Positions 38,573 through 62,153 of a stretch of 64,000 nt of DNA are shown one piece after another. This DNA is from Chthonomonas calidirosea T49 (GTDB lineage Bacteria; Armatimonadota; Chthonomonadetes; Chthonomonadales; Chthonomonadaceae). Within the stretch, counting starts at the first letter, position 1; every line of letters starts with the position of its first letter. Where the stretch lies: contig NC_021487.1 in NCBI RefSeq assembly GCF_000427095.1, positions 310,001-374,000 on the forward strand. The letters are read 5' to 3'. Both the position numbers and the translations under genes were made by a program. The notes beneath the pieces were generated by a model, which worked only from the letters and a program-made list of their open reading frames with translations, did not search any database and was not told the origin of the DNA.

Positions 38573-38756
38573 AAGTTTATTATATAATTGGAAAATAACC
38601 ATTGATTTAAATTCCTCAGGGAAAGCTATGAGTTACTTTTGAGTATAGTACCATTGAATATTGTATCATACTCTTATAACGGTGTCAAGCGAAAGGATGG
38701 TCTTGTATGTTTGAGGTTCGACGTACAGGGCATTTCTGAGGTATTCTTTGAGGCAT
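38573..38756. other. AT-rich divergent intergenic region
   Basis: About 180 bases, far richer in A and T than the coding regions, between the cytochrome gene (minus) and the deacetylase fusion (plus). TATAAT-like sequences occur on both strands (for example within 38580-38590 and near 38673), so divergent promoters are likely, but no unambiguous -35/-10 pair is seen. Confidence 0.4.
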
Positions 38757-40580
38757 ATGAGACGCCAGCAACCAATGAGAACCTCACAATCTAGAAGGGG
38801 ACGCACCCTACATCGGCTCCTATTTGCTAGCTTTCTGGTCTGTTTTGCGTTTGGATGTGGAGCGCTTGGCACTCTACTTGGATGGCACTATTGGATGCAT
38901 CGTCGTCCACCTTCAATTCCCGGTATCGTACAAAGTGTTTCTGCTGCAACTTCCAACGTGCTTTCAAGTCTGGGCACGAACCCGAGCTCCGACACTCCAG
39001 GGCTGTTGACGTCTGGAACCCAGCCCATTCCGGTGATTATGTATCATGATGTGGTGCCCCGCAAGCAGGTTTGGTTCGATCTGACGACAGAGGAGTTTGC
39101 CCGTCAGATGCAGGAGTTAGCGGAAGCTGGGGCGCATCCGATAACGATTCAGCAGTTTTATGATCATCTCAGTGCAGGTAAACCCCTGCCCACGCATCCG
39201 ATTCTGCTTACCTTTGACGATTGCACATTGGGGCAGTTTACGCAGGCACTACCGATTCTCGAAAAGTACCGTTTCCCCGCCGTCTTTTTTGTGCAGACCG
39301 GGTCGGTGGGAGTTACCACGGTAAAGCCCCATATGACGTGGGAGCAGCTGAAGGAGGCAGAAAGTACCGGATTGATCACCGTCGAATCTCATACCGTGAC
39401 ACATCCTGAAGATCTCACTAAGATCTCCGATCATCAACTTGAAGAGGAGATGGAGGTGTCCAAGCACTCAATCGAGTACCATTTGGGGCATCCGGCACTC
39501 TTTTTAGCTTATCCGAGTGGAAACTGTGATGCACGTGTGGCCTTGGCGGCCCAGCAGGCAGGTTATCTCGCTGCTTTTACCATGAACAGGGGGTGGGCTG
39601 CTAGCCCTGCTCCGCGCTATTTTCTACCGCGTTTGACACCGAAGCGCATAGAGGATGTATTGGCGGTTTGGCGAGGTCAACAGGCAATTGCACCGCCCTT
39701 ACCGCGTCTGATGACTATTCGAGCGAGTCCTTTAGAGCGAGGCACCTTTACAGGAGGTACTTATCCTGTAGACTGGATTGCAGGGGGTAGCCTAACTACG
39801 GAAACGCTCGATCATCGCGACACCGTAGGAGATATGGCTCAGCAGGTGGGGGCGATAGCCGCCTTGAACGGCACTTTCTTTGCGGATGCCCGTATCGCAA
39901 GCAATGCAGGCGGGATGATCGGGCCTTGTCTGAGCAGCGTAAACGGTACCTACCAGCCTTCTGATCCTTCAGATGATCCGCGGCTGGAGGGGCGACCGCT
40001 TATCCTATTTAGCCCCACCCACTGTTTAGTGGTGCCTTATGCGGCCTGTTTTGGTAGCTCACAAGCCGTTCTGCAACAGCTCTTACCAGATGTCACCGAT
40101 GCTTTTTTGGCAGGAGGCTGGATCGTTCACTATGGAAAGGCACTGCCGCCTGAAGAGATGCGACGTTGGTCCTCCTCTGATCTCAACGATCCGCGGCATC
40201 GTGCTTTTGTTGGGATTGATGCGCAGGGCCGTTATATGTTAGGTGCGACGCGAGATAGCATTAGTACAGAGGTGTTATCGCATCTGTTGGAGAAGATGGG
40301 GGTTCAGGAGGCTTGGCTCCTCGATTCGGGGTTTAGCACTAGCCTTATCTGGCAGAATCATGTACTGGTTTCTGGACATTCAGAGCCTGGAGTTCCAAGC
40401 CGTCCTGTACCGCATGCGCTGTTCCTCATCGGGAACGCCGCCCCGGACGCCCCACCGCCTCCGCCGGATACGCCGCTTGCAGCAGGAGAAGGGGCCGCGA
40501 CCCTGCAGGATGCCCTTTCTGCCGATAGCACCGCTGGAGCAGCTAACTACTATCGGCGACATCGTAGACGACATAGGTAG
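38757..40580 (+). CDS. Membrane-anchored polysaccharide deacetylase fused to phosphodiester glycosidase domain
   Basis: 607 residues. One membrane segment (about 20-46) suggests an exported, anchored protein. A NodB/CE4 domain (about 90-305) has 'TFDD' at 152-155 and the metal His pair in 'SHTVTHPED' (H212, H216). A second domain (about 318-580) resembles the phosphodiester glycosidase (NAGPA) family: 'AALNGTFFAD', then 'AWLLDSGFSTSLIW' in place of the usual LDGGGS, and 'RPVPHALFL'. NAGPA-type enzymes remove GlcNAc caps from phosphodiesters. A glycan-modifying role is likely. The start is uncertain; ATG 38775 is an alternative. A tyrosine phosphatase gene follows after 20 bases. Confidence 0.85.
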   Translation: MRRQQPMRTSQSRRGRTLHRLLFASFLVCFAFGCGALGTLLGWHYWMHRRPPSIPGIVQSVSAATSNVLSSLGTNPSSDTPGLLTSGTQPIPVIMYHDVVPRKQVWFDLTTEEFARQMQELAEAGAHPITIQQFYDHLSAGKPLPTHPILLTFDDCTLGQFTQALPILEKYRFPAVFFVQTGSVGVTTVKPHMTWEQLKEAESTGLITVESHTVTHPEDLTKISDHQLEEEMEVSKHSIEYHLGHPALFLAYPSGNCDARVALAAQQAGYLAAFTMNRGWAASPAPRYFLPRLTPKRIEDVLAVWRGQQAIAPPLPRLMTIRASPLERGTFTGGTYPVDWIAGGSLTTETLDHRDTVGDMAQQVGAIAALNGTFFADARIASNAGGMIGPCLSSVNGTYQPSDPSDDPRLEGRPLILFSPTHCLVVPYAACFGSSQAVLQQLLPDVTDAFLAGGWIVHYGKALPPEEMRRWSSSDLNDPRHRAFVGIDAQGRYMLGATRDSISTEVLSHLLEKMGVQEAWLLDSGFSTSLIWQNHVLVSGHSEPGVPSRPVPHALFLIGNAAPDAPPPPPDTPLAAGEGAATLQDALSADSTAGAANYYRRHRRRHR

Positions 40581-40600
40581 AAGCTTTAGGGAGAAGTAAC

Positions 40601-41320
40601 TTGCGACACAGCAGAGTCTGGTTGGCTTGCAGCCTCTTAGTTCTTTACGTGCTTGGGGCCTGTGATAATACAGAACAAGGAGCCAAAAAGGGCACAAACG
40701 TTCGTGCGCCCACTAGCGAAGTGACAAGTGCCGAGAATGCTTCGGGTTTACGGCCTGCCCTACCTCATGCTACAAAACCGACGGATTTGAATATGGGTGC
40801 GCTCAAAGAGGCTCAGCATACCATCGCGAACGTGCATGTCGTAGAACCGTTTCTCTTGCGGGGTGCTGCGCCAACAGCAAAAGGTGTTGCGTGTTTGAAG
40901 GCATTAGGGATAAGAACCGTAATAGATTTACGGATCGCTCCAAAACATGTGGCGGCAGAGCGCAAACTGGTGGAGTCTGCTGGAATGCACTACGTGAATC
41001 TGCCCATGAGCGCTGAACCACCGACGCAGAAAGAGATTGACACGTTTTTGACGATAGTGCGCGATCCTAACAAAGAGCCGGTCTATGTGCACTGTCAGTA
41101 CGGAGCCGATCGAACAGGGTGTATGGTCGGCCTTTACCGAGAGATCTATGAGGGCTGGAACTACCAAAAAACCTACTCTGAGATGCGGCGATATGGCTTT
41201 AAACCCTATCTGCACAAGCTTGCTGCGACGGTGCAAAAGTACCAACCAGGTTCACCGGAGGCAAAGTCAGAAAGAGCGAAAGTGGACGCTCTGTTGGAGC
41301 ATGAAACCATAAAACCTTAG
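40601..41320 (+). CDS. Lipoprotein tyrosine/dual-specificity phosphatase
   Basis: 239 residues, TTG start with GGGAGAAG upstream. The lipoprotein signal ends 'VLGAC' (Cys21), so the enzyme would sit outside the cytoplasmic membrane, unusual for this class. The phosphatase loop is HCQYGADRTG (H164, C165, R171), with 'LGIRTVIDLR' earlier, as in DSP/PTP-like and Tps1-type phosphatases. Possible substrates are exported phosphoproteins, phospho-lipids or phospho-sugars; sequence does not decide. It lies between two deacetylase paralogues, 20 bases after one and 17 bases before the other, likely as one transcript. Confidence 0.88.
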   Translation: MRHSRVWLACSLLVLYVLGACDNTEQGAKKGTNVRAPTSEVTSAENASGLRPALPHATKPTDLNMGALKEAQHTIANVHVVEPFLLRGAAPTAKGVACLKALGIRTVIDLRIAPKHVAAERKLVESAGMHYVNLPMSAEPPTQKEIDTFLTIVRDPNKEPVYVHCQYGADRTGCMVGLYREIYEGWNYQKTYSEMRRYGFKPYLHKLAATVQKYQPGSPEAKSERAKVDALLEHETIKP

Positions 41321-41337
41321 CAAATTGGGGTTGGCTT

Positions 41338-42198
41338 ATGCGCGCTTTTCGATATGCAGTACTTTGGGCAAGCATCTGTTGCCTGTTCGTAGGGCTCTGG
41401 CTTGAAGTTGGCGCGGTTAGGGGTGAGCTTCATCACGGTGTCCATCGGCGTGAGCTGGTCCAAAAGAAGACACCCTTACTCTCTGAGGGAATGTTGCCGA
41501 AGCCGGTACCAGGGGCAGCGAAACAGTTCGCTGCCGTATTGGTTTGGCATGATATCGTACCAAAAACCAAGCAGGTCTGGTTCGACACAACTTTATCTAC
41601 CTTTCGTAGGCAGCTCGAGTTGATCCATCGAGGGGGTTTTCATGTCATTACGCTGCGTCAGTTATATGATCATCTCACGAAAGGTACACCACTTCCTCCG
41701 AAACCTATTGCGCTGACGTTTGACGATAACAATCAGGGCATCTACTACTATGCATTTCCGCTCCTACGTCGCTATGGCTATCCTGCGACCCTATTTGTGC
41801 ATACTGGCTATGTGGGGGTAACGACTGACAAGCGTCATAACACTTGGGATATGCTTCGCACCATGGTGCAGAGCGGTCTGATTGATGTGCAGAGTTTAAC
41901 CCAAAGCCACCCTGAAAACATTCTATTGCTATCGGACAAGCAGATCGTCAAAGAGTTAGTGAACTCTAGACGCTCTATTGAACTGCATCTAGGAATACCG
42001 GTTTACGCCTTTGTTTATCCTTGTGACAAACACGATCTGCGAGTTGCGGAAGACGTCTATCGTACAGGGTACGAGATCGCTTTCACGGAGGATAGGGGCA
42101 ATGCTTGTGCCTCACCAAATCTCTACTTGGTACACCGATATGCTGCCATTCTCTGCTTTGACCAGGCGCTATCCGATGTCGCTCATGCCTGGCACTGA
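41338..42198 (+). CDS. Polysaccharide deacetylase-like protein with altered metal site
   Basis: 286 residues, with an N-terminal signal or anchor (about 8-28). It is a clear paralogue of the CE4 domain at 38757-40580, sharing the block 'VGVTT.K...TW' and the order of motifs. 'TFDD' is kept (127-130), but the first metal His is Leu187 ('QSLTQSHPE'), while H191 remains; the later 'AYPSG' becomes 'VYPCD'. It may be catalytically weak or inactive, perhaps a glycan-binding or regulatory relative. It begins 17 bases after the phosphatase gene. Confidence 0.82.
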   Translation: MRAFRYAVLWASICCLFVGLWLEVGAVRGELHHGVHRRELVQKKTPLLSEGMLPKPVPGAAKQFAAVLVWHDIVPKTKQVWFDTTLSTFRRQLELIHRGGFHVITLRQLYDHLTKGTPLPPKPIALTFDDNNQGIYYYAFPLLRRYGYPATLFVHTGYVGVTTDKRHNTWDMLRTMVQSGLIDVQSLTQSHPENILLLSDKQIVKELVNSRRSIELHLGIPVYAFVYPCDKHDLRVAEDVYRTGYEIAFTEDRGNACASPNLYLVHRYAAILCFDQALSDVAHAWH

Positions 42199-47274: not shown

Positions 47275-48828
47275 CTATCCGCCCCGCGCCCAGCGGAGAC
47301 CGGTGTAGAGGCGATATCCATAGCATTTTGCAAGATAGATCGTCGCAATAGGGTGCCTATAGAGTGGGCGTCGGTAGAGATGGACGGGCGGTAACCACTG
47401 AACCCGTGCAAAAACCTTATGCAGATCGGCATCGTTCGCTTTGCCCGCATTGATGAAGATCGAGTTTTCACCGATATGTCGTTTCAGTTGTTGGACGTAG
47501 GCCGCATACATATCGAGCCGATAGTGGAGGAAGAGATCGTAAGTGGGCGGATGGTCGGGCAAATAGAAGGCCATGAGGGCGATATATTGATAGCCATTGC
47601 CTGAAATGAAAACCTTATGCCCCTGCATCTCCATCTCCGAGCGAATTTGCTGTACTTTTTTGGCAAGCGTGCGCCATCCAAAAGCTGTATTTGTAATGTC
47701 GGACTTAGGTGGAATGTGGATGCCAACGGCCAGGCGCAGTCGAGGAAAGAAAAGAAGCAGCGTGAGAAATGCCGTGGAGATAGCAGCAAGGCTAAACCAA
47801 AAGATATTGGTGAACGGTTTGCGCTGCTTTTCAACGGAGAGGTAACGGCCGACCCAAAGAAGACAAAGAGAGGGATAGGCAAAAGGAACCCAGTTAGCCT
47901 GCACTTTGGTTTTGAAGGCCAGAAGGCAAAACAGGAGCAAGGAAGGCAGACCCATGAAGGCCAGAAATCGGTGTGGTAACGGCGCCTTTGTACACAAAGC
48001 AGAGAGGCTCGCACCGAAGCTACCCAAAAAAATAACTGGTCCTATAAACAGGGCTTGAGAGGCTAGAAAATCCCCAAAACGATGCAGTGGATTTCCTCCA
48101 TGATGGTGGACTAAGAAAAAGAGATGCAAGAAGGTCCACCAATGATGCTGCGCGTTCCACCATAGGACGCCGCTATACATGACCAACATAATACCAAGGG
48201 CAGCGTAAGGTTCCCAGCGCCTTAACCAGAAACGCTGGGGCGGTGTAAGGAGAAGGTAGAGCAGAAGGCTTCCGGGCAGAAGAAGCAGGGTGTGTTTGCT
48301 TAGCAGTCCAAACCCGCAGAAGATGCCTGCGATGAGCCATGCTCGACGTTGTTGAGCGGAATAGGGGCTGTAGACAAAGAGGGCTTTTGCTATCTGAAGA
48401 AGGGTAAGTGTCCAGAAAAAAACAAGAGGAGGGTCGTAGGTGGCAATTTGACTGCCGACCGCAACTAGGGGAGATAGGGCTAATAAGACGAGGGTGAGGA
48501 AACCGACTTGTGGCGAGAAGAAAAGAAGGGCGAGCTGATAAACGCAGAGAAGCGTCCCAGCCGTTAGCAGGCAAACGCCAATACGAACGCCAAATTCATT
48601 TGTACCAAAGATCGCCGTGGTAAGGCGAATAAGATAGGCGATGAAGGGGCCCTGATCGTAGTAACCAAGTGCCAAATGTCGTGACCAATCCCAGTAGTAA
48701 GCCTCGTCGGGAACGAGATCAATGGCTTTAAGGAGGGGGAGGCGTAGCAGGGTGGTAATAAGCAGAAAGAGAAGCGCAGCAAGATGAATTTTTTTTGTTT
48801 GTAGTGGGCGATAGGAGGGGGTTTGCAT
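47275..48828 (-). CDS. GT39-type membrane glycosyltransferase (ArnT/PMT-like)
   Basis: 517 residues from the ATG at 48828; a TTG at 48834 would overlap the previous stop. Around ten membrane segments are visible. The first loop carries the family's 'PDEAYYWDWSRHLALGYYDQGP', the catalytic Asp/Glu region of lipid-phosphate-sugar-dependent transferases such as ArnT. The C-terminal soluble part (about 380-517) is short. It transfers sugar from polyprenyl phosphate to a protein or lipid on the outer face; the acceptor is unknown. It starts two bases after the previous gene stops. Confidence 0.9.
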   Translation of the reverse strand: MQTPSYRPLQTKKIHLAALLFLLITTLLRLPLLKAIDLVPDEAYYWDWSRHLALGYYDQGPFIAYLIRLTTAIFGTNEFGVRIGVCLLTAGTLLCVYQLALLFFSPQVGFLTLVLLALSPLVAVGSQIATYDPPLVFFWTLTLLQIAKALFVYSPYSAQQRRAWLIAGIFCGFGLLSKHTLLLLPGSLLLYLLLTPPQRFWLRRWEPYAALGIMLVMYSGVLWWNAQHHWWTFLHLFFLVHHHGGNPLHRFGDFLASQALFIGPVIFLGSFGASLSALCTKAPLPHRFLAFMGLPSLLLFCLLAFKTKVQANWVPFAYPSLCLLWVGRYLSVEKQRKPFTNIFWFSLAAISTAFLTLLLFFPRLRLAVGIHIPPKSDITNTAFGWRTLAKKVQQIRSEMEMQGHKVFISGNGYQYIALMAFYLPDHPPTYDLFLHYRLDMYAAYVQQLKRHIGENSIFINAGKANDADLHKVFARVQWLPPVHLYRRPLYRHPIATIYLAKCYGYRLYTGLRWARGG

Positions 48829-48830
48829 TC

Positions 48831-49655
48831 TCAATTACCTGTAGCGAACAGTTCGTCGCTAAGCGGCTCGTCCACGCGAATTTTCTCAAGTTCCGTATCG
48901 GCTGCGATGTTGCCTTCAGCGTCGCGAACTTGAATGTGTGTAGGTATCCAGAGAGAAGGGGCCACTTGGCGCGGCATAAGATAGCAAAACGCTGCCTTTA
49001 GCTTGCCATCTGCCGAGTACCATTCTCGTTTGACGACAAAGTGTTTTTCCGGATCGAGCCAAATACGGTAGAAGGTACTATTGGGATGATGGATATAGTG
49101 CAATTCGAAGACAAGGAGCTGATGACCCTGCTTGTCATCTGTCTGAACAAAATGCGCTTGCATAAAATCTAATGTCTCGGAAGTGATCAATCCTACATAT
49201 TCAAGAAGCGACTGACGCTGAACGGGGTGATCTGTTAGGTCCTCCTTTTTTCTTAGATGCAGTTTAGGCACGGCGTAGAAGCGGTAGGGGCCGTTATAGA
49301 TCAGTACCGCATCTCCAAAGGCTGTGGATTGTCCGTCGAGTCGCAGCTTATCAGGCGCTTTGTAGAGTAAGAGCAGTTTATGAATAGCATAGTTGCGTGC
49401 AAAATCAGGGCCGATATGTGCTAACACCTCAGAATTGCTAGAGGTGATATGCAGGATCGCTTCGAGAGATTTAAGATCGGTAAGTTGGGAGACGAGGTCA
49501 GGGTCGTTAGGTGCTTTGCGAGTTATGATATGCTGTGCGCGCAGGGAAGAGCCAACAAAGCATAGGAACAGAATAAAGCACAGGAACGGCCATGGGGAGA
49601 CATCTCCTTTCCGAGACTGCAGAGTGGCCCTCCTAGAGCCTGCTGAGATATGCAA
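48831..49655 (-). CDS. Secreted LolA/MucB-like lipoprotein-sorting-type protein
   Basis: 274 residues, TTG start with GGAG nine bases upstream; no other Met lies near the N-terminus. A hydrophobic signal ('FLCFILFLCFVGSSLRA') precedes a half-barrel beta fold. Features shared with LolA-like proteins are 'LLLLYKAPDKLRLDG', 'NGPYRFYAVPK', 'RIWLDPEKHFVVKREWYSADGKLKAAF' class strands and 'IPTHIQVRDAEGN'. It could bind acyl chains or cell-envelope lipids. It is immediately upstream of the GT39 gene, so the pair may share an envelope lipid-sugar function. Confidence 0.7.
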   Translation of the reverse strand: MHISAGSRRATLQSRKGDVSPWPFLCFILFLCFVGSSLRAQHIITRKAPNDPDLVSQLTDLKSLEAILHITSSNSEVLAHIGPDFARNYAIHKLLLLYKAPDKLRLDGQSTAFGDAVLIYNGPYRFYAVPKLHLRKKEDLTDHPVQRQSLLEYVGLITSETLDFMQAHFVQTDDKQGHQLLVFELHYIHHPNSTFYRIWLDPEKHFVVKREWYSADGKLKAAFCYLMPRQVAPSLWIPTHIQVRDAEGNIAADTELEKIRVDEPLSDELFATGN

Positions 49656-49823
49656 CTGTCCTATCTCCTGAATATAGAATCGTGTCTATTTAACGTATAA
49701 TTACAGGCACAAGGATTTTCAGTAGACAGCCTGTTCATCGTTAGTATAGCCTTTAGAGAGGCGGAATGTCAAAACAGTATTCGGAGGACTGGGGTGCGTC
49801 GTAATAATAAAGAAAGGGTGAGA

Positions 49824-50669
49824 ATGAAGCAGACATCAAATTGGCGATATTGTTGGTGGTTATTCATCTCTCTATTTATTCTTGTAGCCTATGGGGCAGC
49901 CTATGGGGAGGATATGCGCCATGTTGCTACGAGCGGCCTGTTCGCTCATGGGGTGGACCCCTGGCTCTTGCCCTCTAAACCGCATACTTTATGGGAAGGC
50001 AACCATCTCATCGCTATTGTGCGAGGAAATCCACAAAGAAAAGAGATCGCACTAACCTTTGATGACGGTCCTCATCCACTGTTCACACTACGCCTCTTGG
50101 CGTTGCTCAAGATGCTTCATGTGCGCGCCACTTTTTTTGTGGTTGGATGGAAGGTCGATCAGGCACCATGGGTGCTACAGAGAATGCTTGAGGATGGGAA
50201 CGAGATCGGCGACCACACCTATCATCACTTCGATCTGAAGTCAGGGCCGCCAGAGTTGACAGCAGCTGAGATCGAGATGTGTAACGATGCCATCTATCGG
50301 GCTTGTGGCTATACGCCGCTCTTTTTTAGGCCCTCTGGAGGGCAGTTCGATCCTGCTGTGATCCATGAAGCGGCGGCGCACCACATGATCACGGTGTTGT
50401 GGACAGACGACCCGGCCGACTATGAGAGTCCCCCTGCCGATGTCATCGAAGACAGGCTGCTTCATCATGTAAGTCCTGGAGCTATCATCCTATTGCATGA
50501 TGGTATTGAGCAGACCTATGAGATGCTCCCTGATTTTATCGAGCGTATGCGCCGTGCGGGCTATACATTTGTTACCCTTCGTGAAATGATTGAACATTTG
50601 GATAACACTCCCCATGCCGAGAGAGTTCAACTTGCCTCCTTCCGAAGATTCAACACCAGAACCAAATAG
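49824..50669 (+). CDS. Polysaccharide deacetylase (NodB/CE4), exported
   Basis: 281 residues from the ATG at 49824 with AAAGGGTGAG upstream; a GTG at 49794 is possible but has no such site. The signal or anchor is at about 8-28. All canonical CE4 motifs are intact: 'LTFDDGPHP' (Asp80, Asp81), 'GDHTYHH' (H131, H135), 'FFRPSGGQFDP' and the late 'IILLHDG'. It would deacetylate GlcNAc residues in peptidoglycan or an exopolysaccharide. Its 3' end overlaps the next gene's start, so the two are likely co-translated. Confidence 0.93.
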   Translation: MKQTSNWRYCWWLFISLFILVAYGAAYGEDMRHVATSGLFAHGVDPWLLPSKPHTLWEGNHLIAIVRGNPQRKEIALTFDDGPHPLFTLRLLALLKMLHVRATFFVVGWKVDQAPWVLQRMLEDGNEIGDHTYHHFDLKSGPPELTAAEIEMCNDAIYRACGYTPLFFRPSGGQFDPAVIHEAAAHHMITVLWTDDPADYESPPADVIEDRLLHHVSPGAIILLHDGIEQTYEMLPDFIERMRRAGYTFVTLREMIEHLDNTPHAERVQLASFRRFNTRTK

Positions 50670-53600
50670 ACCGGAACTCGATACCGTTAATTGGGATGAG
50701 CCAAGGCAGCAACCCGTCTTCTATGATGCGGGACAGCGGCGTTGGCGAGTGGTGCGTCGCGTGCTGTTTCTGACATTCGGAGCAGTTTTTGCAGGTTTTG
50801 TTGTACTGGTAGTAAGCCTGTTTGCTAGGCCTTTAGTACCTTATACAGCTTTACCTAAGTTAGCACCCGTGCGCGATGTGGGAAATTTAGATCCTATTGC
50901 CACAGAGCATGCTGTCTTTAAACGACACGAGCTCGACGTGAAGTTGCAGCGAGACAAGCAAGCTTTACTGGCCATCCAGAAGGAACGGCGCATGTTGCGG
51001 TTGAGGCGTCATGAACGAGCTCAAGCCTATCTTCGTCTGTTGGCAGCGCAGGCACCGAGGATGTTAGACCGAGGTGGGCCTGTGGTCGCCGGTTTTTATG
51101 TGGATTGGGAGCATACTTCGATTGTCTCTGCTGAGCAGCACATAGATAATTTAACTCATCTCATTCCAGAATGGTTGCATCTGAAGCCCTCCGGCTTCGA
51201 TTATGCGGATCCATCACAGGTTCCTTTTGTAGATGCGCGACCGAAATCGGATGGAGCCTTAATTCAGCTGGCGCGTGCACACCATGTAGCGATTCTTCCT
51301 CTCATTAACAATTATACGAGTAGGCCTGGACAAGAGCTAGGCGATGGGCAATGGGACACCAATGCCGTGGATGCATTGGTGACCGATGCGGACGCGCGGG
51401 CGAATTTTATCTCTCAATTGCGCCTTTGGCTGCTCGACCATCACATGCAAGGGATAAATATTGACTTTGAGCAAATAGATGTTGATGATCGAGAGGCGCT
51501 TGTCGAGTTCATGCGCGAGCTGTATCGTGCTCTACATCCTTATGGTCTCTTGGTTACACAGGAGGTAGAGCTAGAGAATCAAGCTTATGATATTCCAGCA
51601 CTTGCGCGATGGTGCGATTGGATTGTGCCGATGTTCTATGACGAACATGCTGGAGGCACTTCTCCGGGGCCGATTGCCGGGATAGATTGGACACGGCATG
51701 ATCTAAAGCTGTTGTTAGAGAAGGTCCCGCCGCAAAAGGTTGTGATGGGCATTGGGAACTATGCCTACAATTGGGTGGACGAGCCAGGGCAGACCGATGC
51801 GGTGTCGTTAAGTTATCAAGAGGCTGTCGAGACCGCGCGTGAAAGCCAGCCTGATGCTGTGGTACATCTCGATCCAAAGAGCTTAAACCCTGTATTTTCC
51901 TACTGGGAAGATGCTGTGGATGCCTCTGGCAATCGGTTTGCTCAGAAGCACGTGGTTTGGATGCTTGATGCGGTTAGCGCCTATGACCAACTCGTTATTG
52001 GACGAAAATACCATGTGCGCGGGGGCGCGCTATGGGTTTTAGGCGACGAAGACCCAACTATCTGGAGTTTCTATCACAAGGCGTTATGGCATGGCAATTG
52101 GGAACAGATCCTTGCAAAGGGTGCCCTAGACCGAATCGTTTTTGCCGGTGCAGGCTTAGTGGATTTTGATGGTGAGGGGGCTTTACTACAACCAAAGGCA
52201 GAACCGCATGTTGGTGAGAGGACAGTAACTCTGGATACACAAACGGGGCTAGCGGTAGCGGAGGCCTATCGCAAGGATGCGCAAGGGCACTTTCTTTTTC
52301 CTACATCGTATCTTATCCGGCGCTATGGAGGGGCCGACAATTTGCGACACAAAGAGGTGCTTCTCACTTTCGACGACGGTCCCGATCCCGAATGGACTCC
52401 CAAGATCTTAGATATTCTGAAGCGGTACCGGGTACCAGCGGTCTTTTTTGTTTGTGGTCGGAATGCGGAAGCATTTCCCTATCTCATAAAGCGAGAGTGG
52501 GAAGAGGGGCATTTAATAGGCAACCATACCTGGGATCATCCCGAACTTGACGAATTGCCTGCGGCGCAACAAATTGTGGAGTTAAACGCAACACAGCGTG
52601 TGATACAGGCGATCACGGGGCACTCTACAGTCCTTTTTCGACCTCCTTATGGAGGAGACGTTGAACCTACCACGGGAAGTGAAATACGCCCTCTGGTGCT
52701 GGCGGGAAAGCTTAACTATATCACGGTGGGAGAGATGGATGACCCGCAGGACTGGCGTTTATATGATCTAAAGCCGGGTACGGGCACTCCTGATCCCTCC
52801 CGGCCGCGCTCCGTTGAGTCCATAGTCAACGATGTTCTGAACCAGATCGGTTCAGGAAGTGTTGTGTTGCTTCACGATGCTGGAGGGGATAGAAGTCGAA
52901 CGGTGGCAGCTTTGCCTCAAATTATCACCCGTCTGCGAGCACGTGGTTACCGATTTGTCGATCTTCCCCATCTTGTTTCTATTCCCCGAACACGACTTAT
53001 GCCACCGGTTACAGGAAAAGATGTTGTCCTAGCTGGAACCGATCACTATGTCTTTTTGTTCTCTTACATCTTTCAACGCGTGCTCACCACACTGTTTCTG
53101 CTCTCCATCGTACTTGGAATAAGTCGCGTTCTGATTCTCATGCTTTTAGCTATTCCGCAGTACTTCAAAGAGAAAAGGCGGGTATTTCCTACGAGGTATC
53201 AGCCTACGGTCTCTGTGGTGATCGCTGCTTACAACGAGGAGAAAGTGATTTGCAAGACGGTGGAGGCATTGTTAGCTAGCGACTACCCAAATCTCGAGAT
53301 CGTGGTCGTAGATGATGGTAGTAAAGATAAAACGGCAGCACTTGTACAAGAGCGTTTTGCCGGTGTGCCGAATGTGAAACTGATCCGTAAGCCGAATGGA
53401 GGCAAAGCTTCCGCCTTAAATCGGGGAATTCGAGAGGCATGTGGAGAGATTATCGTTTCGCTTGACGCGGATACATTGTTCGCGCCTGACACGATTTGGA
53501 GATTGGTTCGCCATTTTGCCGACCCACAGGTAGGAGCCGTTTCAGGAAACGTTCGGGTTGGCAACGCGCGAAATCTCATCACGAAGTGGCAATCCTTAGA

Positions 53601-54345
53601 GTACATAACAAGCCAGAATTTCGATAGACGTGCCTATGATCTTCTCAACTGCATTACTGTGGTGCCTGGTGCTGCTGGTGCGATAAGGCGATCTGCTTTA
53701 GTGGAGGTTGGCGGGTATACATCGGATACTTTAGCCGAAGATACCGACCTAACTTGGAAGTTGCGTCGAGCCGGTTGGCGTATTCGGAATGACAGCTCTG
53801 CGTGGGCCTACACAGAAGCTCCCGAGCATTTAAATGCTCTAGCAAGGCAGCGCTTTCGATGGGCTTTCGGTACCCTTCAGTGTCTATGGAAACATCGCCA
53901 CGCGTTGTTCGAGGAAGGCACCTTTGGTTGGGTCGCACTGCCAAGCTTATGGGTCTATCAAATTCTCTTTCCCGCCGTATCACCCTTCATGGACATTGGA
54001 ATTCTGTATGCGTTGATAGAACATAACTTTATCGCCTTCGGATCGCTTTTTGCGTTAATGACGGGCATTGAGATGCTAGCAGCTTGGATAGCGCTGTGCA
54101 TGGATCATGGCAATCGGCGCTTGCTTTGGTACTTACCTCTGCAACGCTTTGTTTATCGTCAATTGATGTATTACGTGGTCTTGAAGTCGCTTTGGGTAGC
54201 CACGCGCGGTTCGGCTGTGGGGTGGAACAAGCTAGAGCGAAGCGGCACGGCTCAGTTGGGCATAAAAAAGCCTTTGCCTGTACCTGGGGTCAAAGAGACG
54301 GTTACGCCAGAGCTGATCGAACCACCAAAGGCCGGCAAGTTGTGA
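50614..54345 (+). CDS. GH18-CE4-GT2 multidomain membrane protein
   Basis: 1243 residues from the ATG at 50614, overlapping the previous gene by 56 bases. The order is: cytoplasmic N-terminus, membrane helix (about 49-71), coiled segment, GH18-like barrel (about 155-500, 'GINIDFEQ' with catalytic Glu286), and CE4 domain (about 575-790; 'TFDDGPD' from 585, 'NHTWDH', 'FRPPYGG', 'LLHDAGG'). Membrane segments near 812-850 lead to a GT2 domain ('VVDDGSKD', 'SLDADT', 'EDTDLTWKLRR', 'RQRFRW') with C-terminal membrane helices. The GT2 resembles NodC/PgaC-type GlcNAc polymerases. The protein may make, deacetylate and cut an amino-sugar polymer. Confidence 0.93.
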   Translation: MPREFNLPPSEDSTPEPNRPELDTVNWDEPRQQPVFYDAGQRRWRVVRRVLFLTFGAVFAGFVVLVVSLFARPLVPYTALPKLAPVRDVGNLDPIATEHAVFKRHELDVKLQRDKQALLAIQKERRMLRLRRHERAQAYLRLLAAQAPRMLDRGGPVVAGFYVDWEHTSIVSAEQHIDNLTHLIPEWLHLKPSGFDYADPSQVPFVDARPKSDGALIQLARAHHVAILPLINNYTSRPGQELGDGQWDTNAVDALVTDADARANFISQLRLWLLDHHMQGINIDFEQIDVDDREALVEFMRELYRALHPYGLLVTQEVELENQAYDIPALARWCDWIVPMFYDEHAGGTSPGPIAGIDWTRHDLKLLLEKVPPQKVVMGIGNYAYNWVDEPGQTDAVSLSYQEAVETARESQPDAVVHLDPKSLNPVFSYWEDAVDASGNRFAQKHVVWMLDAVSAYDQLVIGRKYHVRGGALWVLGDEDPTIWSFYHKALWHGNWEQILAKGALDRIVFAGAGLVDFDGEGALLQPKAEPHVGERTVTLDTQTGLAVAEAYRKDAQGHFLFPTSYLIRRYGGADNLRHKEVLLTFDDGPDPEWTPKILDILKRYRVPAVFFVCGRNAEAFPYLIKREWEEGHLIGNHTWDHPELDELPAAQQIVELNATQRVIQAITGHSTVLFRPPYGGDVEPTTGSEIRPLVLAGKLNYITVGEMDDPQDWRLYDLKPGTGTPDPSRPRSVESIVNDVLNQIGSGSVVLLHDAGGDRSRTVAALPQIITRLRARGYRFVDLPHLVSIPRTRLMPPVTGKDVVLAGTDHYVFLFSYIFQRVLTTLFLLSIVLGISRVLILMLLAIPQYFKEKRRVFPTRYQPTVSVVIAAYNEEKVICKTVEALLASDYPNLEIVVVDDGSKDKTAALVQERFAGVPNVKLIRKPNGGKASALNRGIREACGEIIVSLDADTLFAPDTIWRLVRHFADPQVGAVSGNVRVGNARNLITKWQSLEYITSQNFDRRAYDLLNCITVVPGAAGAIRRSALVEVGGYTSDTLAEDTDLTWKLRRAGWRIRNDSSAWAYTEAPEHLNALARQRFRWAFGTLQCLWKHRHALFEEGTFGWVALPSLWVYQILFPAVSPFMDIGILYALIEHNFIAFGSLFALMTGIEMLAAWIALCMDHGNRRLLWYLPLQRFVYRQLMYYVVLKSLWVATRGSAVGWNKLERSGTAQLGIKKPLPVPGVKETVTPELIEPPKAGKL

Positions 54346-60335: not shown

Positions 60336-62153
60336 ATGTGGAGCAAGAGGACAAAGCGACTTGTTTTTTGTGCTGTAACGGGAGCTTGCATAACTATTGG
60401 CTCGCGACTGCTGGCACAATCGTGGCCTGATCTCATGGTGAATCCTGAGACTCATGAGACAAAGGCACAGTTTGCTAAGCGAACGGCCTGGTGGCGGGAG
60501 GCCAAATTTGGGATGTTCATTCACTGGGGCATCTACGCCGTTCCTGCCGATTCCTCGCAAGGTGCGGCGGAATGGTATTTCTCCAATCACACCACAATTG
60601 ACCCAGCAACCGGCAAGCCGAGGCATCTGCAAGTTGCGGAGTACGAAAAGTTTGCAAAACAGTTCGACCCAGTGAAATTCAACGCAGAACAGTGGGTTTC
60701 TATCGCAAAACGGGCTGGTATGAGATATATCGTCATTACGAGCAAGCATCATGATGGATTCTGTATGTTTCGTACGCGCTTAACTTCCTACAATATCGTG
60801 GATGCCACTCCCTATCACCATGATCCGATGGCCGACTTGGCTCGCGCATGTCGGGAACAAGGTCTGCATTTTGGGTTTTACTACTCCTTTATGGATTGGC
60901 ATGCTCCAGACTATCTTCCGCGTCGTCCATGGGATACGCGCCCGACGGAGGGAGCAAGTTTGGAGCGTTACGTGGAGTATGTAAAAGGACAGCTTCGTGA
61001 GCTGTTAACGCAATACGGCCCCATTAGCGTTTTGTGGTTTGATGGCGGTTGGGAGCATACGGCGCAGGAAGAGCACGCTCTCGAGATCGTCCAACTTATC
61101 CGCTCTCTTCAGCCTAACATCATTATCAACGATCGTTTGAATTTGCCGGAGGATTACTCTACCCCGGAACAGACCATTCCATCGGCACCGCTCCCTAACG
61201 GTAGGTTATGGGAAACTTGTATGACGATCAACAACACATGGGGCTACTCGAAGAACGACACGGATTTCAAATCGGCGACACAACTAATTCGCGATCTTTG
61301 CTTGATCGTGGGAAGGGGCGGCAATTTTCTCCTAAACGTAGGGCCGACGGCGGAGGGCATCATTCCCCAACCAGAGGTGGATCGCCTCCTCGCCATAGGG
61401 GATTGGCTGCGTGTGAATGGAGCTTCTATTTATGGCACCGAGGCTGGGCCGTTTCGTCGTCTACCGTTTGATGGAAGCTGCACGAAAAAAGGCAACAGAC
61501 TCTATTTGCAAGTATTTAACTGGCCACAGGATGGGATGCTACGCCTGCCAGGCCTCAAAACAAGGGTTTTGGAGGCGAGATGCCTGTTGAATAACCAGCG
61601 ACTTCCGGTGACGACAGGCGCAGATGGTGTTATGATCGGCAAACCGGATAGGCTTGATCCTGCAGCGACCGTTATTGCCCTTAAGCTTGCAGGAGCACCG
61701 GAAGTAGAGAACGTACCCATCGTGGAAAAGCCTGGTGGGGATGGTCGTTTTTGGCTACCGGCGACAGATGCCGATATTCATGGCGAGCACGCTCAGCTGG
61801 AGACTAAGGGAGGCCAACCGAACATCGGATATTGGACGGATGTGCATGATACGGTGAGTTGGCTTTTGAAGGTTCCTCAGAGCGGGGACTACGAGGTACG
61901 GCTTATCTATGCTTGTGAGCCAGCAAGCGCAGGTAGCACATTTCAAGTGGTAGTCGCATCAAAAGACGCGCCGGAGTCTCGACTAAGTGGAGAGGTCACA
62001 GCGACGGGAGGATGGGATGATTTCCGTTCAATGGCGCTAGAGGGGCATCTGCACCTGCAGGCTGGTGTCGTTACCTTGAAGGTAATACCCATAACGATGC
62101 CTCATGGAGCAGTGATGAATCTGCGTGCTATAGAGCTGATCCCTCAGTCTTAA
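60336..62153 (+). CDS. Alpha-L-fucosidase, GH29, with C-terminal accessory domain
   Basis: 605 residues. A signal peptide spans about 1-28, ending 'SRLLAQS', so it is exported. The GH29 barrel (about 35-365) has 'REAKFGMFIHWGIYAVPA', 'TSKHHDGFCMF' and the nucleophile Asp236 in 'VLWFDGGWEH'. Beta-sandwich regions follow; the last (about 455-605) resembles the carbohydrate-binding module found after many fucosidases. It releases terminal alpha-L-fucose from plant or microbial glycans. A GGAGG site precedes the ATG; the gene follows the esterase by 64 bases. Confidence 0.95.
   Translation: MWSKRTKRLVFCAVTGACITIGSRLLAQSWPDLMVNPETHETKAQFAKRTAWWREAKFGMFIHWGIYAVPADSSQGAAEWYFSNHTTIDPATGKPRHLQVAEYEKFAKQFDPVKFNAEQWVSIAKRAGMRYIVITSKHHDGFCMFRTRLTSYNIVDATPYHHDPMADLARACREQGLHFGFYYSFMDWHAPDYLPRRPWDTRPTEGASLERYVEYVKGQLRELLTQYGPISVLWFDGGWEHTAQEEHALEIVQLIRSLQPNIIINDRLNLPEDYSTPEQTIPSAPLPNGRLWETCMTINNTWGYSKNDTDFKSATQLIRDLCLIVGRGGNFLLNVGPTAEGIIPQPEVDRLLAIGDWLRVNGASIYGTEAGPFRRLPFDGSCTKKGNRLYLQVFNWPQDGMLRLPGLKTRVLEARCLLNNQRLPVTTGADGVMIGKPDRLDPAATVIALKLAGAPEVENVPIVEKPGGDGRFWLPATDADIHGEHAQLETKGGQPNIGYWTDVHDTVSWLLKVPQSGDYEVRLIYACEPASAGSTFQVVVASKDAPESRLSGEVTATGGWDDFRSMALEGHLHLQAGVVTLKVIPITMPHGAVMNLRAIELIPQS

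Follow-up and report, generated by a model that had tools for sequence, protein, structure and literature searches.

A predicted one-chain poly-N-acetylglucosamine synthase with GH18, CE4 and GT2 domains in Chthonomonas calidirosea T49

The genome of Chthonomonas calidirosea T49 consists of one contig of 3,437,861 bases (3.44 Mb), of which positions 310001–374000 form the window, i.e., the whole 64,000-nucleotide stretch of DNA analysed here. The features of interest are listed in Table 1. Between an ATG at 50614 and a stop codon ending at 54345, the plus strand carries a reading frame free of internal stops; a mechanically generated list of open reading frames places the start 8 codons upstream, at TTG 50590. 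The encoded protein matches the Pfam models Glyco_hydro_18 (aa 158–426, 1.9e-15, 57.8 bits vs a cut-off of 29.6), Polysacc_deac_1 (aa 576–681, 4.9e-36) and Glycos_transf_2 (aa 867–1030, 7e-37), all above their gathering scores, confirming an initial sequence-only reading according to which a GH18 hydrolase, a CE4 deacetylase and a GT2 glycosyltransferase are joined in a single polypeptide. The fusion is not an assembly artefact, since the genome is a single contig and 28 other relatives from the phylum align with the protein from end to end.

Table 1. Features of the fusion gene and its neighbours; positions refer to the window
Feature	Position	Strand	Description and evidence
Fusion gene	50614..54345	+	TM1 - GH18 - CE4 - TM2 - GT2 - C-terminal TM segments, 1243 aa; intact ORF and Pfam
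TM1, aa 48-72	50755..50829	+	N-terminus predicted inside; KD19 peak 2.58; hydrophobic segment ahead of GH18 in 35/35 aligned fusions
GH18 hydrolase domain, aa 154-490	51073..52083	+	Catalytic D284 and E286; Pfam, solved relatives, alignment
CE4 (NodB) deacetylase domain, aa 576-795	52339..52998	+	Pfam and alignment
TM2 stretch, aa 812-850	53047..53163	+	Predicted to lead back across to the cytoplasm; hydropathy; followed by KEKRR-type positive stretch
GT2 polymerase domain (predicted), aa 864-1086	53203..53871	+	Pfam PF13641 1e-35; PgaC_IcaA model; alignment
C-terminal hydrophobic region, aa 1101-1195	53914..54198	+	Interfacial or TM helices; hydropathy
Separate CE4 gene	49794..50669	+	56-nt overlap with fusion start; Pfam 1.1e-30; homologue beside fusion in 6/26 loci
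LolA-like gene, divergent	48831..49655	-	Pfam LolA_like 4.7e-8; 4/26 loci
PMT_2/ArnT-like membrane glycosyltransferase gene, divergent	47275..48834	-	Pfam PMT_2 2e-29; 4/26 loci

Each domain carries the signature residues of its family. The GH18 domain combines the profile match with the Asp-x-Glu of the catalytic motif, the catalytic glutamate being Glu286 at the end of QGINIDFE (aa 279–286). NodB motifs 1–5 of the CE4 domain (TFDDGP, HTWDHP, RPPYG, DPQDW and LLHDAGG) occur in canonical order, and the GT2 domain contains the motifs DD, DAD, ED and QRFRW, assigning it to the processive type (DD, DxD, ED, QxxRW), with processivity as a prediction. The hydrolase glutamate, the complete NodB site and QxxRW were thus located in the alignment just where they had first been read. 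This alignment comprised 35 rows, namely the window protein and those of 28 loci of its phylum and six plasmid loci, chosen among the best matches and not as a census; L001/L002 (self), L009/L010 (the same proteins as L015/L014) and the fragments L013, L024 and L038 were dropped. Because L014 and L015 are nearly identical, the following counts are not independent. D284 is present in 35/35 and E286 in 34/35 fusions. The residue four positions before the catalytic glutamate, which is Asp in the textbook GH18 motif DxxDxDxE, is Asn in 28/35. D587, D588, H638, H642, D713, H754 and D755 of the CE4 domain are invariant, as are D901, D951, D953, E1042, D1043 and the Q, R and W of QxxRW in the GT2 domain (35/35 each); D900 is replaced by Asn in L049. 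Mean identity of the 28 phylum members to the window protein amounts to 66% for GT2, 51% for CE4, 43% for GH18, 20% for TM1 and 17% for the linker following TM1, and to 49% for aa 1101–1215. The active-site counts and domain identities indicate that all three enzymes are kept, the hydrolase least strictly. It is not kept in every fusion, since the Sulfitobacter protein L029 has lost both E286 and D710.

Sulfitobacter plasmid copies (L029 4554–8003 and L053 3425–6838) appear to be decaying or changing: besides the first, which lacks the two residues, the second is broken up, with CE4 and GT2 encoded by different genes.

The gene overlapping the fusion start encodes a further CE4 protein, which by eye shows an apparent signal peptide when begun at an internal ATG; in one of the six loci that have a homologue, it runs in the opposite direction. 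The sequence-only reading had sought the novelty of the fusion in its local context. This view is not borne out, as the upstream CE4 gene recurs in six and the divergent LolA-like/PMT-type pair in four of the 26 loci, the latter all within the family of the window. The only other neighbours shared by at least three loci are an MprF-type gene (4/26) and one further family (3/26). The conserved context is therefore limited to close relatives and is a family-level habit, not a source of novelty. The MprF-type gene, which codes for a lysyl-phosphatidylglycerol synthase, lies near the fusion in four loci, three from sphingomonads and one from the phylum of the window (L025 8841–11441, L026 10971–13039, L052 and L085), possibly as part of a shared cationic-surface programme; VirJ/AcvB-type genes also occur in L025 and L026. 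Within the window, two more CE4 proteins are encoded at 38748–42198, 8–12 kb upstream of the fusion; in one of them CE4 is joined to a NAGPA phosphodiester glycosidase domain, and a dual-specificity phosphatase gene lies between them. An alpha-L-fucosidase gene is found at 60336–62153, 6 kb downstream.

Membrane topology was assigned from hydropathy. Apart from TM1 and the TM2 stretch, the window protein shows hydrophobic segments around aa 1105–1160, and segments of transmembrane strength ahead of GH18 and between CE4 and GT2 are found in 35/35 fusions. Four Lys and Arg residues precede TM1 and five follow TM2, as compared to three and one on the opposite sides. The positions of the segments and the excess of positive charge on the inner sides predict that GH18 and CE4 are exposed outside and GT2 faces the cytoplasm, in agreement with the arrangement originally proposed. 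AlphaFold2 models based on three-row alignments had mean pLDDT values of 44.5 (aa 805–1220) and 42.8 (aa 75–810), too low for use.

The genome encodes no GH18 other than that of the fusion; the solved chains nearest to this domain are those of a probable chitinase (5jh8), YdhD (3cz8) and YaaH (4s3k). The CE4 domain is canonical, with PgdA, PdaB and NodB as nearest models. On account of the same three predicted activities, the fusion could be regarded as PgaC joined to PgaB by common descent, as the comparison with the poly-N-acetylglucosamine system in the first reading might suggest. However, E. coli PgaB did not match the GH18 domain and matched the CE4 domain over 43 residues only (E=0.001). 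PF14883, the model of the PgaB-type hydrolase, found no match in the genome, so that the hydrolase is not of the PgaB GHL13 type, and the accessible text of a study on PgaB describes its hydrolase domain as devoid of GH18 motifs (PMC5933820). Descent from PgaC and PgaB is thus highly improbable. What stands of the proposed PgaC/PgaB-like one-protein machine is its functional side, which the three complete sites and the topology make plausible.

For the GT2 domain, the closest NCBIfam model is PgaC_IcaA (TIGR03937), with 203.7 bits vs a cut-off of 422.3; the score on the NodC model is 108.4 bits vs 550. No second protein of the genome comes near the PgaC model, the next-best scoring 75.5 bits. 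E. coli PgaC itself reaches 648 bits, and the CE4-GT2 proteins of Kocuria and Streptomyces plasmids, MatB-like proteins which served in place of MatB itself, reach 205.3 and 180.1 bits, respectively. Pairwise identity of the window GT2 is 46% to the Streptomyces and 41% to the Kocuria CE4-GT2 protein, 36% to PgaC (244 residues) and 30% to NodC. In a tree of 48 GT2 sequences, the 29 phylum rows including the window form one group (support 83/94), near which the remaining three-domain rows and the Streptomyces CE4-GT2 protein attach without resolved order, while the Kocuria protein stands on the side of PgaC/IcaA, NodC and an archaeal GT2 (87/95). PgaC/IcaA and NodC do not fall within the group of three-domain proteins; their branches are long, and the finer order there is unsafe. 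Scores, identities and tree together indicate that the domain resembles MatB at least as much as PgaC and is no PgaC equivalog. Among characterised proteins, MatB of Streptomyces is the closest relative; this CE4-GT2 fusion is required for poly-beta-1,6-GlcNAc. According to the accessible text of the report on it, the polymer that depends on MatB binds an anti-PNAG antibody and is susceptible to degradation by dispersin B; the CE4 domain of MatB is described much as we find it here, i.e., as of the PgdA/NodB kind (PMC5972031). Among the scanned neighbour genes of the window fusion, judged by their names, no MatA or IcaC-like name occurs.

Processive GT2 enzymes are recognised by QxxRW and by transmembrane helices that follow the glycosyltransferase domain. 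We consider it likely that the fusion is a self-contained inner-membrane synthase for beta-linked poly-N-acetylglucosamine; its substrate, polymerisation, translocation, deacetylation, cleavage and biological role are inferred. The cytoplasmic GT2 would use UDP-GlcNAc to build a GlcNAc chain, which its C-terminal helices would pass outward; there, on the outer face, the tethered CE4 may remove part of the acetyl groups. GH18 would cut the chain at acetylated stretches, limiting its length or freeing stalled chains, and the upstream overlapping gene might add a second, probably secreted deacetylase. In favour of such a synthase, the active sites are kept in 34–35 of 35 fusions, domain order and the two membrane segments in all 35, and the gene is solitary in most loci, as would be expected of a self-sufficient enzyme. 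Against it count the GT2 score, less than half of the PgaC cut-off, and the tree, in which PgaC/IcaA and NodC branch apart from the three-domain proteins. No PgaA-type exporter above the cut-off was detected in the genome (best protein, a generic TPR match, 50.9 bits vs 366.65); since the same model also gave matches in 12 of 14 control genomes, it is uninformative on export. Alternatively, the GT2 might not be a polymerase at all, transferring a sugar, be it GlcNAc or a different one, onto a lipid, peptidoglycan or protein acceptor, with CE4 and GH18 editing the glycan, for example in cell-wall remodelling. A match of the mycofactocin glycosyltransferase model (114 bits), the spore wall enzymes among the nearest GH18 structures and the PdaB type of the overlapping CE4 gene would fit this role, but the invariance of QxxRW (35/35) and the conserved C-terminal region argue for a polymerase and render it improbable.

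For the favoured synthase, the evidence on the linkage of the product is divided, the type of GH18 leaning toward 1,4 and the GT2 toward 1,6 bonds. By analogy with MatB, a 1,6-linked product appears somewhat more probable. Known GH18 enzymes cleave 1,4 links, and a 1,6-linked product agrees badly with such a hydrolase. If the product were 1,4-linked, the protein would be a one-chain chitin/chitosan synthase, in which a GT2 functioning like NodC makes chitin, CE4 converts it to chitosan and a GH18 chitinase sets its length. This possibility, which we regard as clearly the less probable of the two, would be consistent with the chitinase and spore glycosylases among the nearest GH18 structures and with the closeness of the CE4 domain to PgdA, NodB and PdaB types, which in the accessible text act on 1,4-linked substrates (PMC5972031). 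A Paenibacillus plasmid furthermore carries a NodC-like PilZ-GT2 gene adjacent to two CE4 genes and a GH18 gene. However, the GT2 scores on PgaC_IcaA and NodC (see above) point the other way. The CE4 type does not settle the question, since that of MatB likewise looks 1,4-specific although its polymer, as far as described in the same source, is PNAG-like, dispersin-sensitive and 1,6-linked (PMC5972031). The broader proposal that the three-domain proteins are widespread one-chain chitosan makers, combining synthesis, deacetylation and length control of a 1,4-linked, partly deacetylated chitin, seems rather unlikely to us.

Split arrangements on plasmids speak for a functional connection between the hydrolase, deacetylase and glycosyltransferase activities. 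In Kocuria, the CE4-GT2 gene adjoins a gene annotated as 'chitinase', whose GH18 match stays below the gathering score (22.9 vs 29.6 bits). The Paenibacillus plasmid (L030 3122–10752) contains CE4, PilZ-GT2, a second CE4 and GH18 genes in a row, with the PilZ-GT2 protein scoring 193 bits on the NodC model, and this cluster is perhaps a c-di-GMP-controlled locus for a chitin-like polymer.

Related fusions, whose existence in some bacteria had been anticipated, were found in phylum genomes, plasmids and two printed listings. Across the phylum, matches at E<=1e-100 occur in 48 of 291 genomes, a count that includes split or partial matches (e.g., G009, G059 and G105, two contigs each); the proportions are 39/194 among good-quality genomes and 28/156 among genera, the genomes without a match including incomplete ones. 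Some match was obtained in 1654 plasmid records, 18 of which align with 80% or more of the query at a single site. These 18, from the Alphaproteobacteria Sphingobium, Novosphingobium, Sphingomonas and Sulfitobacter and from Deinococcus and Prevotella, show 33–41% identity, and the annotated copies examined are labelled only 'glycosyltransferase' or 'glycosyl transferase family 2'. Pfam detected all three domains in the fusions from Prevotella and Deinococcus; in that of Sphingobium it detected CE4 and GT2 and no GH18 at 0.001, yet the protein aligns to the GH18 region with D284 and E286 kept. A search of viral contigs for phage or viral carriage gave no stretch matching the query patterns. In print, 'GH18-CE4-GT2' was tabulated in 2012 for Acetivibrio cellulolyticus (ZP_09465738; PMC3413522) and 'CE4-GH18-GT2' in 2020 for Sphingobacterium multivorum w15 (PMC7065263), and the text seen of the two papers gives no function for either protein. 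The architecture is hence already known in print and across several bacterial groups, and the window protein is a further member. Experimental work on the three-domain form was not found in the open-access literature searched, as far as its text was accessible, so that this widespread family is without an experimentally tested three-domain member there. If the one-gene synthase is real, it would be a simple system for studying the control of polymer length and charge, and defined glucosamine polymers could perhaps be produced from a single gene.

With PgaBCD of Escherichia coli, the fusion shares synthase, deacetylase and hydrolase activities, as predicted, around a GlcNAc polymer; however, the E. 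coli activities reside in separate proteins, the hydrolase belongs to another GH family, and PgaD and PgaA act as partners. NodBC of rhizobia make short 1,4 oligomers. They likewise pair a CE4 enzyme, NodB being 38% identical to the window CE4, with a GT2 working on GlcNAc chains, but as separate proteins and without a hydrolase. The listed proteins of A. cellulolyticus (PMC3413522) and S. multivorum w15 (PMC7065263), likened here by their listings, share the same three CAZy modules, the former also in the same order. MatB of the Streptomyces MatAB system differs in having two domains, without GH18. As far as the available text of the two MatAB reports goes, it agrees with the window protein in the PgaC-like affinity of its GT2, in a CE4 of the PgdA/NodB kind, and in the layout of a single chain whose outside CE4 and inside GT2 are connected by a transmembrane segment (PMC5972031, PMC4391728), a layout that hydropathy predicts for the window protein as well.
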